Below the pieces are notes generated by a model. It saw only the letters and a list, made by a program, of their open reading frames with translations, was not told where the DNA came from and searched no databases. A stretch of 64,000 nucleotides of DNA from Erodium maritimum. Lineage: Eukaryota > Streptophyta > Magnoliopsida > Geraniales > Geraniaceae. The translations under genes and the position numbers were made by a program. This document shows, in pieces, positions 55,347 to 61,861 of the stretch (position 1 is its first letter; every line of letters starts with the position of its first letter). The stretch spans positions 59,257,675 to 59,321,674 of the forward strand of contig OY997594.1 of the NCBI GenBank assembly GCA_963921825.1. Direction: 5' to 3'.

Positions 55347-56408
55347 TTCTTCAGCTCTTTGTCGGAGAAGAGATCGTAGTCAAATGGGTCTAACTCTCCT
55401 CTTGAATCCATGGGTTGTGTTGGAACTCGATGAGTTACCTATGGTAACTGAGCAATAAAATGGAATTAATGAAAGTTTATGGTACTGAGGTGACACAAAA
55501 AAGATTTAGAATACTGCAAATGAATTAATAAAAGTTTAAGGTATTGAGCTGATACAAAAATTATTTAGGGTAATCTAAATGAAATATAAAATATTTAGGG
55601 TACTGAGGTGGAATTACTACTAAAAAAATTATAATTTGTAAAGTTATCACCTTGCTACTCTGAAAAACTTTTATTTTCAATTTAGTATTTTTCTCGTTAT
55701 TTTTTCATCCAAACATCTAAAAATCCATAATACTCTCTAATAGTCAAATTTTCTAAATTATTGAAGTCAATTTTGTGATGAAATCAACCTTGATTTCAAT
55801 CACAAGATTGTATCCCAATTTATGATCTCTTTCCTTTTATCAGATATTGTAATTGCTAGAATATCTTTATTTCCTTTTTCGACATGTATCCTCTTATATA
55901 AATATGTAAAATTACATATCAATAAACAACAAGTAGGGATCCACCATGTAAATTTGGGCCACTTATATCGGGTCGGGCTTCCACAACTAAAAGGTCAAGC
56001 TTGTTAGTTGGGCGTGACCCTAGCCTTTATAAGTAGCATTTTATCCTTATATTTTTCCGATGTGAGTTTATACTTCAACATAAATCATGTCATTTGGAGG
56101 GTCATCGTCACTATCTTCTTTTATGTCTCAACACTGTACATATGGGTTCTTCAGCCTTTCAATTTGACCCAAGCTAAGAACTCTTGCTCTATAAAGCTTA
56201 ACCCTCTCAAACTCCGCAGGCTTAAATGGTGTTTGATCAATGGACAACTCCACAACCATAACGAGAACAATGATTGTAGTAGTTCCAAGTTGCAATTAGC
56301 CCCAAGTCCCGAATTCTCCATCTCATCAAAGATGTCGAAGAAATGGTCATCTGCCTTGGCTTCGTACGACGTGTGGATGCGAGTTTCGAAGCTCGTAATT
56401 TGCAGATG
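55347..56408. other. Intergenic; no gene recognised
   Basis: AT-rich to about 56040. 56140-56408 is less AT-rich and keeps a 139-codon frame on the minus strand that reaches into the LTR behind it; I do not recognise it. The sequence seems to continue beyond the LTR element at 61021. Confidence 0.4.
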
Positions 56409-56785
56409 TGTCGCGATTGGATCGTGACTATAAGGAGGAGAGCAGTACGACACCGTTTGGGTAAGGAGAAGGAGAGTGTAAAACGTTGTTGTTTGGGTTA
56501 AGTTTGGGTATGAATGGTTTGGTCGATACGATACCGTTTCTTCTGGCACTGTGCTTCTTCTCCAAAACATACCTCATATATAAACCGGAGTTATTGCAGC
56601 ATAGAGCTGGACTTGAATATTGATATTCTTACTTATAGTGTAGCGAGTAGCTGGTAGTGTAGACCGTAGAGTAGAAAGGGCTCGATAGGAGTTGTCTTGC
56701 TGAATTTGTGTATTCAGAGTTGAATCAAGATTATTTCTTCTTTGTTTGCTATTAATTACTCCTTATTACAACATAAATCGTTACA
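56409..56785 (+). repeat. 5' LTR, 377 bp
   Basis: Starts TGTCGCGATTGGATCGTGAC (an imperfect palindrome) and ends ATCGTTACA. Contains a TATATAAACC box near 56576-56585 that could be its TATA element. Confidence 0.93.
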
Positions 56786-56786
56786 G

Positions 56787-56803
56787 TGGTATTAGAGCCA
56801 CCG
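56787..56803 (+). other. Primer-binding site, tRNA-iMet type
   Basis: TGGTATTAGAGCC starts one base after the 5' LTR and matches the common plant PBS TGGTATCAGAGCC at 12 of 13 positions. Confidence 0.85.
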
Positions 56804-59689
56804 ATTTAACGACCTAGAGATGACCAACATAGATGTGGTGAGTGTGAGCTCGAAAAAAGAAGCCATGGAAGAAGTCTGAACTGAAATGCAAATTCTGAAG
56901 CATATGGAGCAAAAAGCTCGAGAAGAAATGGAGTGCATTAGGAAGAGTCTTTAGCTCTTGTTGCAAGCTCAAGGACAAAGCTTAGGACCTCCGTTCTATG
57001 AAGGTTCTACTTGCAACCCCGAGAGAAATCCATGACCCAGGATTTAAGTTTGGTTCTCGAGGAGGCAGAGCAAGCTCAAAGGTTTCGGAGCTGAGAAGAC
57101 ATACCCAGAGGCATCTCGGAGGAAGGGAAGAAATAGCCAGCAACCTTGTGACTCCCATGGCTGACTCCACGATGGTAGCCGGAGAGGTGGATCTCCGACC
57201 CATAAAATGTCTGCCATAGCAGCTTAAAGATGGGAGAATTGAGTTCCGAATTGGGAAAAGGCTTCAGGAGAGATTCTGGGTGGAGCAACAAAATTGGGTG
57301 CAACAACAATCAACTATCGATAAAGAGATAGAGGAACAACAAGATGCCTTGGAGAGACAGGAGATGGAACACTGGAATGAGAGTGAGAGACATGAAGCTT
57401 CAGTCACAATCAATGGTGGTCGAATGGGCTGCTATTCTACTGGTATGTGTGCCTTTTACAGTAAAATTTCAGATGCTAATGAGTTAGCTTTCTGTTGCTT
57501 AATTTATTATAGCTCATCTCTAAGTAAAAAGGTTGGGAGGGTTGTGTTTGCTGAAGATAAGAAAGGGATTGGCACATTACATTTTGTTGGGTTGTTGAGT
57601 AGTCAAAGCATAAATTATAAAATGGATATGTTACCGTTGTTATCAAATGGGGTAGAACCGTTTATTGATGATGGTAAAGGTGTGGGTTTAAAGGAGGAAA
57701 TATTTTTCAGGCAACAAGTGGTTATTTGGTATGGTTTGGCTTGCTATTAATCTCATTAGACCTTGTGTTGGTTGCTAGTATTAGGAAAACGCTTCGAGGT
57801 TTTGAAAGGAAAGTTTAGCAAATGGGTATTAATACTCTTCTCAGTAGTATTAACGAGGGTATTGTCAGTTTTCAGTTTCATTGTTGTTGTACTATACCTT
57901 GGAATGGGTTGAAGACAAGATTTATTAGAATGAGTATGGACGATTATACCTTGTCACTCTATTTAATATTGATGGGGTCTCAAGTTCCTCTTGATAATAA
58001 TAGACTTGCTCATAAGTTCAAGTTTTGGAGAGAGTTGCAAAGCATGAGTCTGGTATTTCATTCAGTTGATGACCTGAGAAACACATTGAGTCAAAAAAGG
58101 CTTTGGATGAAATTAAAGGAGGTACAAGGAAAAGGTCTACAAAAATTTCAGCTAGAAGCTTGACTTAGTGGGATTTTGTTCATGCGTGGTATACTCTAGC
58201 ATATACAAGACGCAAACAATTAATTCAGTGGTTATGGAAACCCATAGCTCATATGGTCTTGGGAGCTTATTTGCTTGTTGTGCCACAACGTGATAATTTG
58301 TCTGTAAACATGAATTGGAGGCATGTTTCTTATGTCAACCACCAAGGTGCATGCCTAAATTTGAAGAAGTGGTGTGATTATTATGTCGAGCAGAAGATTG
58401 GGGCTGTAAGTTGTGAGAATAATGATTCTTCTTAGAGTTGGTTGATCTCCTACTATGATCAGAATGAGAATGGGGGTTGTGCTAGAACTATAATAATCAT
58501 GCATGTATGACTTGTAGTTCACTTCCAAGAGTAGGTCACTATATGGATTCTCATTATGAAGGAGCTTATAACTACTGGTCATGAGGAGCTAAGTACATTT
58601 TTTGCTGCACATGTTATACTCCTTGCAAATCCCAAAACACTATGGTTTGACAAAATTGAGGTAAATTCTTTATTGACTGATTTAATCTTACATCTCCTAG
58701 TGTTGCACTATAATGGCGTGGTAGAGTTGTGTACTAATATTGACACTTTAACTAGACTACATGAGAGTTTGCAATGTTCGAAATTGTGTATAGTGTTGGA
58801 GTTTGGTATCTTGAAAAATGGATCTTGTTATGAAGAGAGGAAACATGATTATGGAAATTATAGACAGGAGGAGAAGTCATGTTTATTGAAGAGGGTGATA
58901 TGTGGTTTAGAGCTTTTGAAAATAAGTTTAACATGTATGGTAAAGATAGGAGTTGTGGGAGTGCAATTTCTTATGTTACAATAAATATATGAGAGTGGAA
59001 ATGAAAGGGGTTTGAGTTACCATCATGAGATACATTGTGGTTTGGGTAGCATGAGGTTTTAGGAATGATGTTTGGCACTTGAAAAATGGCTCTGGGAATT
59101 ATAGGTTGGGGAAGTTGTCATGTTTATTAAAAAGGGGTGATGATGGTTGTGGTCTACTTTGTGGGTGTGTTAAAAAGAATAATGTGGCTAGATGATCTGG
59201 GATCACGTATTCAAATGAGAAGAGGGCTTGGGGAGGTTCTAAGAATGAGAATTTGATGCATGGATCGAGCAATGGTATTAGTACAAGTAGTATAACCGAG
59301 TTTTAGATTTTAGAGTATGTAGTGTATTCATCAATTGCAAACCAGGCAAGCAAGGTGTATGCACTGGCTCTATCCATGATTGAAGAAGAAGGTTGCAGTT
59401 ATGAAGGCAAGACACAAATGGGTATCTTGAATCTTAGTGAGTTTGCTAGTGGTTTAAGTATGAAGCAACATATTTTTTTTCCTAGCAGCTATGATTTATT
59501 TGATGTTGCTGATACTAATGCTTCTTACTTGATTTGGGAGGTTTGGGTTGAGAGGGGAGTTGATTTTGAAGACCCTATCGTTATGGTTCTTGATCACATG
59601 CCAATAATTGATGATGATCTGATTAAATTTGAAGTGTTTTTGGGAGTGAGAACATTGTATTTTTTCAATGTATCGAATGGTAATGTGGA

Positions 59690-60190
59690 GTTGAGTTACA
59701 AACTGTACAATGAAAAATCAAGGGCACATCTCCTTCAAATACTATCAGATATTACATTTGAACTTTCAATCTTTCTATTAGCTCTGAGAGAAAAAGACTT
59801 CTGTTGGAACTCCCTGTGATACTACCAGCACTATCAAGGAACAACTCGTCGCGATAACATCTGCACTTGGACGGCTTTTCAAACAAAAAGAGGATAGAGT
59901 GAAGAATTTCTTGGATATACAGTGTCAACTACAAAAAACGCGTGGAGAAATAGTTGGGAATTTGAACATGAGTGCGCAGGGTACTTTTTCAATTAATGAG
60001 TATGTTCTGAAGTTGAAGAAGTCTAATGCAAATCATGCCCAACCCCAAGAACTTCAAAGGAAAAAAGGATGTTGGTTTGCACAAGGTCCTTAATTATATA
60101 AGCACGGTGAATGCTCTATGTGTTGGGATAGACTTCTTCAACAATGTAGCACAGGTTCATCCAAGCCTACATGAATTTACTAGTATGTAA
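59690..60190 (+). pseudogene. Captured MAP65 (microtubule-associated protein 65) fragment inside the LTR element
   Basis: Consecutive stretches read like the N-terminal coiled region of plant MAP65/Ase1 proteins. KSRAHLLQILSDITFEL corresponds to KSRAELLQTLSDANAEL in Arabidopsis MAP65-1 as I recall it. TIKEQLVAITSALGRLFKQK and EDRVKNFLDIQCQLQKTRGE correspond to TIKEQLAAIAPALEQLWQQK and EERVREFSDVQSQIQKICGD. IDFFNNVAQVHPSLHEFTS corresponds to LDFLSTVTEVHPSLDEDTS. The order is kept and there is no obvious intron, which would fit capture from a spliced transcript. MAP65 crosslinks antiparallel microtubules; this fragment covers roughly residues 60-200 and cannot do so. It is broken and lies in more than one frame. 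Confidence 0.85.
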
Positions 60191-60624
60191 TACAAGAGAT
60201 TCTTGACTACGACAAGTTTTGTTGCCACTACTATTTTGTGGACAACAGTTTTGGAATGGAATTTCATGTGGGGATTTCGTGCTTATATCTATGGTGGGTC
60301 TTTGTCATGAATTGAAGCTTTTTAGTGCTTCGGCAATTACTTATGGGTATAAACACATTTTGGAGAAAATGATGAGTTTGCATCAAGATCTTGTAAAAAT
60401 GTTCTGTTCACATTTGAAGCAAAAGAGGACACTAAAGATGAAGCTAAGGCTGAAGACAAAGTTGTAACATGTCTTGGATTGCTCCTTTGGCCTACAGGAA
60501 TTGACAAACAATGTCCGAAATTTATTTCTACTACTTGGTCGAGAAGAAGTCTGAAGGTTTGCCATCATATGGTGCTTGAATTGTTAGTGGACGGTTCAAC
60601 CAAGCTTGAGGATAAGCTTGGTTT

Positions 60625-60637
60625 AAGGGGATTGGTT
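60625..60637 (+). other. Polypurine tract
   Basis: AAGGGGATTGG directly precedes the 3' LTR. Confidence 0.7.
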
Positions 60638-61015
60638 TGTCACGATTGGATCGTGACTATAAGGAGGAGAGCAGTACACAATCGTTTGGGTAAGGAGAAG
60701 GAGAGTGTAAAACGCTGTCGTTTGGGTTAAGTGAGGATATGCATGGTTTGGTTGATACAATATCGTTTCTTATGACATTGTGCTTCTTCTCCAAAACCTA
60801 CCTCATATATAAACCAGAGTTATTGCAGCAGAAAGCTAGACTTGAATATTGATATCCTTATTTATAGTGTAGCTAGTAGCTGGTAGTGTAGACTGTAGAG
60901 TAGAAAGGGCTCGATAGGAGCTGTCTTGTTGAATTTGTGTATTTCAGAGTTGAGTCAAGATTATTTCCTCTCCGTTTGCTATTAATTACTCCCGATTACA
61001 ATAGAAATCGTTACA
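60638..61015 (+). repeat. 3' LTR, 378 bp
   Basis: Starts TGTCACGATTGGATCGTGAC, a near-perfect inverted repeat, and ends ATCGTTACA. Aligns end to end with the 5' LTR. Confidence 0.93.
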
Positions 61016-61020
61016 AGATG

Positions 61021-61861
61021 CAACCTTGATCGTTTGCGACCCATCCGGGGGGCAAAAACTATGTTGAAACCCTCCAGGACATGTTGATTCCGGCTTCCAA
61101 TTGTCTGACCAAGGTTGGCTTCATGTTCATCCCTGGCGAAGAGATCAAGTCCGACCAAACCGGATATATGGCCGCCACTTTCGTCTTTCAGTCCTTACTT
61201 CTCGTTGCTGCTAGAATTAGGGCGACGATAGACACAGGGTCGAGGATGAGATTTCACTATCATGATATTAAACTCTAGCTTTAATCGATGGTAATGATTT
61301 TGTAGTTGTATTGTTTATCCATCTTGTATTGTGCTCTTCAAACTAATTTGAAGAATTCCAATGGTTTGGAAAGAGAATCAAAAGGTTTGAAAAGGGAAGA
61401 ACAAATCGAGGATATTTTTTGAAAAAATATGATAATGTGTCCAACACATGACTATTTTTCGTCCAAAATTGAACGGAAAGATACAAAATTAAAAATTAAA
61501 CTTTTTTAAAGGTCGCAAAAAAAGATTTAGGACACTCATTTGAAAATAAAAGTTCCCCAAACTAACGGGATGATAATTTCCCTTGTAAGTTTTATCAACA
61601 ATAAAGCAAAAATACAAATTGAACTTAGTTTAAATTAATCTGAGGTTAATTGCTATCTAACTCCTACTTCATCATGTCTGTTCCAAACAGATGATCCACC
61701 GGCATTCGAATTTACATCATGAAATGATAAAAACTCATCCCTAGAGCTGACATCATATGAACTCCAAACCTGAAAGTGAAGATCTCTTGTGCAAATCTTC
61801 TAAACCAAATCCGGACATAACAGTCATATGACTGATAACAAACATGTTTCAGAGCTCACCA
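61021..61861. other. Intergenic; no gene recognised
   Basis: 61080-61278 holds a 65-codon plus-strand frame (MLIPASNCLTKVGFMFIPGE) of unknown nature that starts just outside the element; the same sequence upstream of it was cut by the LTR insertion. The rest is AT-rich. 61680-61860 is the 3' flank of the PPR gene. Confidence 0.4.

Follow-up and report, generated by a model that had tools for sequence, protein, structure and literature searches.

The capture of host mRNA by long terminal repeat (LTR) elements is already well documented, with the non-autonomous maize element Bs1 as one example. Bs1 holds pieces of genes for a proton membrane ATPase, a xylan endohydrolase and a beta-1,3-glucanase, and its chimera is reported to be transcribed and translated (PMC13317346). 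Retroduplicated NLR genes of pepper and other plants lie in LTR elements; about 72% are in elements that are non-autonomous for want of gag/pol coding potential, the steps of transposition having to come in trans, and two or three genes within one LTR element have been noted (PMC5664825). A survey counts 672 LTR-captured genes in rice, 1,343 in sorghum and 424 in maize, some multiplied by later transposition (PMC3726574), and the antisense additional open reading frames (aORFs) of plant LTR elements lack similar outside genes, transduced genes being usually sense (PMC7264820). Here we analyze a 64,000-nucleotide stretch of Erodium maritimum DNA (C7:59257675-59321674, hereafter the window) and find within it a 4.6-kb LTR element that is very probably non-autonomous and Ty3/gypsy-derived, a mosaic of a family leader and sense pieces of at least three host mRNAs, most likely joined through template switching.

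Element ends and the MAP65 piece

An initial annotation of this locus had proposed an LTR element without pol, bounded by 377- and 378-bp LTRs, with a primer-binding site (PBS), a polypurine tract (PPT) and an AGATG target-site duplication (TSD). We find all of these end signals in the sequence, the PPT being short:

56404..56408, + strand: TSD AGATG, left copy (direct reading)
56409-61015, + strand: LTR element, 4.6 kb
56409..56785, + strand: 5' LTR, TG...CA, 377 bp (LTR-LTR alignment)
56787..56799, + strand: PBS TGGTATTAGAGCC, just 3' of the 5' LTR
60625..60631, + strand: PPT AAGGGGA (direct reading), identical in the sister element
60638..61015, + strand: 3' LTR, TG...CA, 378 bp (LTR-LTR alignment)
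61016..61020, + strand: TSD AGATG, right copy (direct reading)

Paired TG...CA LTRs and a short TSD, with a clear PBS and a weak PPT beside the LTRs, are the marks of an LTR retrotransposon. The PBS, which is like that for initiator-Met tRNA, has its counterpart in related loci, 11 of 14 of which carry TGGTATCAGAGC at this position; the PPT consists of seven purines and is separated from the 3' LTR by six bases. The two LTRs are 89-91% identical (91% over 300 bases and 89% over 73 in one alignment, 90% over 377 in another), and 36 differences over 377 sites, 25 transitions and 11 transversions, give a Kimura two-parameter (K2P) distance of 0.1033. With the substitution rate of 1.3e-8 per site per year used for pepper (PMC5664825), the element would have inserted about 4 million years ago. 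The flanks of the insertion (56151-56408 and 61021-61194) hold one minus-strand frame that is open across the rejoined empty site, and none of four insertion-flank frames scanned has a Pfam match.

The proposed lack of pol holds up as well, since no gag or pol Pfam family matches any of nine interior plus-strand, stop-to-stop frames of at least 60 aa, the set that was scanned. Within these nine frames the element is non-autonomous, with no gag capsid, protease, reverse transcriptase (RT), RNase H or integrase. Two matches of raw window frames, ULT1 SAND (the best Pfam match, E = 0.0049, under the cut-off) and a viral fusion protein in the PDB (E = 0.068), are put down to chance.

A search of the 763-Mb genome with the DNA of 59690-60200 returns eight stretches (five of five candidates scored): besides the element itself there are a sister element and three MAP65 genes, and nothing further matches. 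The closest gene is a MAP65 gene at C7:68.535-68.538 Mb on the minus strand, in which Pfam MAP65_ASE1 is found in separate exons and three exons match the window piece at E = 4.9e-49, 2.3e-27 and 1.7e-17:

59714..59811, + strand: MAP65 exon A, part (alignment to the spliced parent gene)
59812..60067, + strand: MAP65 exon B, preceding 480-bp intron gone
60068..60198, + strand: MAP65 exon C, part, preceding 85-bp intron gone; stops inside the exon, no poly(A)

In the C7 gene, exon A runs into a GTGAGT donor, 480 bp follow up to a ...GTAG acceptor and exon B, and a further 85 bp separate exon B from exon C. In the window the exon stretches abut and the alignment to the spliced gene runs through both junctions, such that both introns are precisely gone here and in the sister element (L010) alike. 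The MAP65 fragment of the initial annotation is borne out by this DNA alignment to the genome's own genes carrying MAP65_ASE1, as are the order of its blocks and, on comparison with the parent gene structure, the loss of introns; the four blocks it counted are really three exons. Over 482 bases, identity to the C7 gene is 79.7% for the window and 80.9% for L010, as compared to 72-75% for the other two MAP65 genes and 83.6% between the window and L010 pieces. These identities make it likely that the piece came from the C7 gene or from a close ancestor of it, and the capture would most simply predate the split of the two copies.

Some transposons take gene pieces from DNA, e.g., Pack-CACTA (PMC13317346), and the host pieces could in principle have come by transduplication or by recombination between LTRs flanking a gene. 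We find such DNA-level capture scarcely credible, given the exact or nearly exact loss of both MAP65 introns and, as described below, of one OST48 intron, the sense orientation of all pieces and the gaps kept between these exons in each of the three nearest MAP65 genes. For MAP65, intron loss refutes it, barring an intronless parent, and no intronless MAP65 gene is among the genome matches listed, the genes not having been checked one by one.

OST48 and leucine aminopeptidase pieces and the sister element

Two further host pieces, from OST48 (oligosaccharyltransferase 48-kDa subunit) and leucine aminopeptidase (LAP) genes, flank the MAP65 piece:

59481..59699, + strand: OST48 fragment; limits approximate, deletions relative to L010
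60268..60346, + strand: LAP fragment, 79 bp aligned

The OST48 assignment comes from a two-exon match seen on L010 and transferred to the window by alignment. L010:2400-2760 matches two successive exons of an OST48 gene on C7 (1498970-1499086, 74%, E = 1.8e-12; 1498724-1498794, 82%, E = 1.4e-10) and both exons of a paralogous OST48 gene on C3 (72% and 90%), with Pfam OST48_N (PF03345) just upstream of the matched exons in both genes. The 175 bp between the C7 exon matches shrink to about 20 bases in the element, the intron being gone exactly or nearly so, and the L010 protein aligns to both exons of either gene in the right order, each alignment being weak (E = 0.06 to 5.8). We take the OST48 identity to be settled by these in-order DNA matches in two genes that carry OST48_N. 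In the window, DNA-level support reaches to ~59645, and the extension to ~59699 is a weak protein match of L010. A direct match of window 59492-59572 is to an OST48-like exon at C6:36576994-36577074 (L084; 83%), and the OST48 identity of L084 is weak alone (E = 0.036); no second OST48 exon was found near it, and L084 may be a pseudogene or a third copy of OST48. For this same exon, L010 is 72-74% identical to the two OST48 genes, next to the 83% between the window and L084.

The LAP piece matches a gene exon at 81% over 68 bp (E = 7.4e-9, genome search), and the product of this gene is identified as leucine aminopeptidase 1 (PDB, E = 2.3e-42). Alignment scores are 86 for the window and 78 for L010, relative to a best of 56 among 200 shuffles of the window piece. 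The OST48, MAP65 and LAP pieces are all on the sense strand, head to tail within ~900 bp, and as in Bs1 several host genes lie between the LTRs in spliced, sense form (two MAP65 introns and one OST48 intron gone). These comparisons indicate that the window interior holds pieces of at least three host genes, OST48, MAP65 and LAP.

The sister element L010 begins at C3:54665952 and has its own LTRs, the second with an internal deletion, and its own TSD, TTGTG, which stands before the first LTR and after the ...ATTACA of the second. Its interior is 83% identical to window 58559-60659, and a 249-aa frame holds OST48 and MAP65. Elements with the MAP65 piece number two in the genome search, the window element and L010, and in both the piece lies within the LTRs. 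The search for further copies suggested by the initial annotation is answered by L010, with its matching interior; as for the multi-copy family expected there, the MAP65 version is found twice only, while a wider family with other captures does exist. The initial annotation further predicted that such a family would spread MAP65-like small RNAs; with identity near 80%, we would not expect these to silence the MAP65 gene in trans.

This arrangement also bears on whether long interspersed nuclear element (LINE)-type processed pseudogenes of MAP65, OST48 and LAP were successively inserted into an LTR element. Intron loss is expected of any mRNA-derived copy, processed pseudogenes included. The poly(A) and flanking duplications of a processed pseudogene are not seen here, no A-run following position 60198 and the MAP65 piece lacking both gene ends; moreover, three different mRNAs would have to be placed sense and head to tail in ~900 bp, and the sister element is arranged alike, a single frame joining OST48 to MAP65. 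We regard serial pseudogene insertion as improbable.

In the window, MAP65 is frameshifted and its aligned frame is interrupted by one stop close to the end; the aligned frame of L010 has two stops. The ratio of nonsynonymous to synonymous divergence (dN/dS) relative to the C7 gene is 0.74 for the window and 0.65 for L010, and 0.70 between the two elements; the C7 gene gives 0.11 and 0.14 against its two nearest paralogues, which give 0.24 against each other. Because of the frameshifts, the stops and dN/dS far above that of real genes, the MAP65 copies appear to be under little selection, i.e., a passenger decaying since insertion. A Bs1-like chimera with a host function, in which selection would act on a translated OST48-MAP65 fusion, would accord with the 249-aa frame of L010 and with a dN/dS between the two copies whose point estimate is below 1, and is nonetheless very unlikely in view of the disrupted frames in both copies, a dN/dS that far exceeds that of the real MAP65 genes and the presence of two copies only.

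The leader family and its other host-gene pieces

Upstream of the host pieces the element shares its sequence with many other loci:

56820..57900, + strand: family leader, a part derived from the gag N-terminus plus a coiled-coil-like open reading frame (ORF); stops inside, limits approximate
58559..59115, + strand: family segment common to L010, L020 and L022, 86-87% to L020 and L022

The whole interior as a query gives at least 54 matching stretches, including itself and the MAP65 exons, a lower bound since 40 of 68 candidates were scored, and for its 5' part there are at least 15 other loci with matches longer than 500 bases, at 72-80%. A protein search with the open leader of the related locus L013 yields at least 37 stretches, itself and the window among them (150 of 194 candidates scored). 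One of these, at C8:53472889 (L083), lies within a 1,179-aa open frame, of which the 488 aa read from L083 contain Ty3_capsid and Retrotrans_gag. The L013 leader matches the N-terminus of this Gag over 74 aa at 49% (E = 2e-16), the L012 leader matches it at E = 2e-15, and L083 DNA is 68-73% identical to L012, L018 and L013 in the region of the LTR end and leader. The leader of the window element is broken, yet is a DNA homologue of the L012 and L013 leaders, and it is through these two relatives that the kinship with Ty3/gypsy is established. Because the L013 leader matches the N-terminus of the L083 Gag, we conclude that the family has retained the Gag N-terminus and lost the remainder of Gag.

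The nearest relative of window 56776-58091 is L011 (80%) and that of window 58559-60659 is L010 (83%), and the segment common to L010, L020 and L022 ends near window 59108-59115, after which the 3' contents differ. Since the nearest relatives differ 5' and 3' and the copies diverge after the common segment, the window element looks like a recombinant, one that would reflect template switching both between family members and with host mRNAs. The family ORF also contains a repeat: window 58840-58895 and 59081-59136 form an imperfect direct duplication (56 bp, 75%), and a comparable one is present inside L010 (73% over 59 bp).

Of 23 family loci, 22 have a longest sense frame that is longer than their longest antisense frame (medians 314 vs 132 aa; Wilcoxon p = 1.6e-5), a comparison that includes flanks and some loci sharing one element, in which two of the longest frames (L016, L020) are probably those of other retroelements and gene pieces give long sense frames anyway. 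The start of the family ORF has a median dN/dS of 0.65 over 40 non-independent pairs (40 of 45 pairs from 10 loci, with at least 100 codons and at least 50% identity); some bootstrap ranges fall below 1 and many span 1, consistent with, at most, mild constraint on the family ORF.

We then ask which host-gene pieces the related elements contain. The related loci have 170 sense ORFs of at least 80 aa, of which 110 were scanned by Pfam and 60 dropped, and 108 antisense ORFs, of which 69 were scanned and 39 dropped; the choice was made by hand, with the aim of excluding frames that lie 5' of the leader, fall in flanks or overlap a longer frame, and the sense set was not blind, as some of its ORFs had already been Pfam-scanned. 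At E <= 0.001 the 110 sense ORFs give ten families altogether, namely MFS_5 (two ORFs), PTP-NADK (two), HSP70, UTP20, DnaJ-X and Myosin_head, together with four retroelement domains from two loci. None of the 69 antisense ORFs matches a Pfam family at this threshold.

One case is a young related element at C5:44720396-44726848 (L018, L082, L088), whose LTRs are 96% identical (K2P 0.039), with a TSD of GAATC, and which carries MFS_5 (E = 1.6e-37) and DnaJ-X (E = 5.7e-5) in one frame, the DnaJ-X match in L082 being under the cut-off (23.2 vs 29.4 bits). MFS_5 model positions 67-215 are covered here as a single match with one TAA within, whereas the host MFS_5 genes are exon-split across these positions, and the MFS_5 piece of this element reads as spliced. 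A copy at C9:34639037 is 84% identical to it, and MFS_5 matches in or beside L012 (C6:20326883), L016 and L024 are 32-35% identical to it. Because related copies include cases such as this one, MFS_5 and DnaJ-X between 96%-identical LTRs, the lineage seems to have been shuffling host exons time and again, up to the fairly recent past. Paired LTRs are also present in two more elements of the wider group, with TSDs GTGAG and CAATG and K2P of 0.041 and 0.049.

L017 (C6:54610609) has an HSP70 piece (PDB, E = 1.1e-8), and a 352-aa frame of L078 (C7:54034177) matches the AUX1 auxin carrier (PDB, E = 1.2e-15) and is UTP20-like (PDB, E = 7.6e-4), the UTP20 match being under the Pfam cut-off (24.3 vs 27 bits). 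Because a 46-bp match to the 3' end of the window element precedes the UTP20 match, the UTP20 piece may lie outside the L078 element. We infer that the host pieces of L012, L013, L016, L017, L024 and L078 are inside LTRs, paired LTRs being unseen at these loci.

Other observations on these loci are as follows. The L024 element (C7:14204615) has an 859-aa open frame with a diverged MFS_5, which is long for a non-autonomous element, and the HSP70 piece of L017 and the diverged MFS_5 piece of L012 also lie in long sense frames. Candidate captures only are the PTP-NADK matches (two of the 110 ORFs, short of the cut-off where a score is given) and, in L020, a stretch resembling a myosin head (E = 8.4e-4, short of the curated cut-off). 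An L022 ORF that looks myosin-like in its motifs has no Pfam or PDB match, and an L014 frame that is LAP-like by eye has no match in a PDB search. The copia gag in L016 and the RT and RNase H in L020 are probably neighbors or nested elements and not parts of the family.

Proposed origin and known systems

The paired LTRs, the TSD, the intron loss, the common orientation of the pieces, the second copy and the gag-derived leader are all observed in the DNA. On the origin that we favor, capture through template switching, the LTR would drive transcription of an element RNA that retains the leader, PBS and PPT; this RNA would be packaged in trans, along with spliced host mRNAs, in particles of an autonomous relative; the RT would jump between element RNA and mRNA templates; and the chimeric cDNA would integrate via the helper, making the 5-bp duplication. 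Template switching between unrelated packaged RNAs and the supply of such steps in trans have been described for LTR elements (PMC13317346, PMC5664825).

Several points weigh against this origin. Neither Pfam nor PDB names MAP65 on the broken 101-aa window fragment, and the MAP65 identity rests on DNA comparison with the genome's own MAP65 genes. PDB searches with window 59307-59816 and with the L010 ORF do not name OST48, and Pfam on the L010 ORFs names neither OST48 nor MAP65. The LAP piece is short, and the OST48-MAP65 junction is blurred, with clean microhomology not seen there. L083 is only a relative, since its Gag matches the family leader over ~80 aa, and the DNA match of the window to it is weak (65%, E = 0.034). 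Finally, transcription, packaging in trans, template switching and integration by a helper are inferred, unobserved steps.

Going further, the leader family could be a standing vehicle for exon shuffling, in which the Gag N-terminus and coiled-coil-like ORF are fused repeatedly to sense pieces of unrelated host mRNAs, with frames kept open up to 859 aa because the chimeric protein or the leader aids packaging. We offer this as a speculative and rather unlikely extension; if true, the family would do at the RNA level what Pack-MULEs and Helitrons do, and its leader protein would be selectable.

As an instance of LTR-mediated mRNA capture, the window element is clean and open to checking: the parent gene is known, the introns are lost, there are two copies, and three unrelated genes have been brought together. 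The OST48-MAP65-LAP mosaic is a clear new example of a documented process, and of greater interest is the family as a whole, with its gag-derived leader and its repeated captures, a good system for mapping template-switch junctions and for asking if the leader biases packaging toward cellular mRNA. A search of open-licence PMC text (titles and beginnings of abstracts) found no capture of MAP65 by an LTR element.

We find that the element resembles maize Bs1, as far as the published description allows the two to be likened, in that an LTR element contains three host-gene pieces and a chimeric reading frame; it differs in that the genes are OST48, MAP65 and LAP, the window copy is broken and the leader comes from a Ty3/gypsy Gag N-terminus (PMC13317346). 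It shares with the pepper NLR cases the capture of spliced mRNA within LTR elements, although that study concerns one gene family, whereas unrelated short pieces adjoin here and a gag-derived leader is common to the group (PMC5664825). The rice, sorghum and maize set likewise places host genes within LTR elements, but was built on gene annotation, and its excerpted text describes neither a common gag-derived leader nor multi-gene mosaics (PMC3726574). As in the elements with antisense aORFs, reading frames are added to an LTR retrotransposon; in contrast to those aORFs, the pieces described here are sense and their parent genes are found (PMC7264820).

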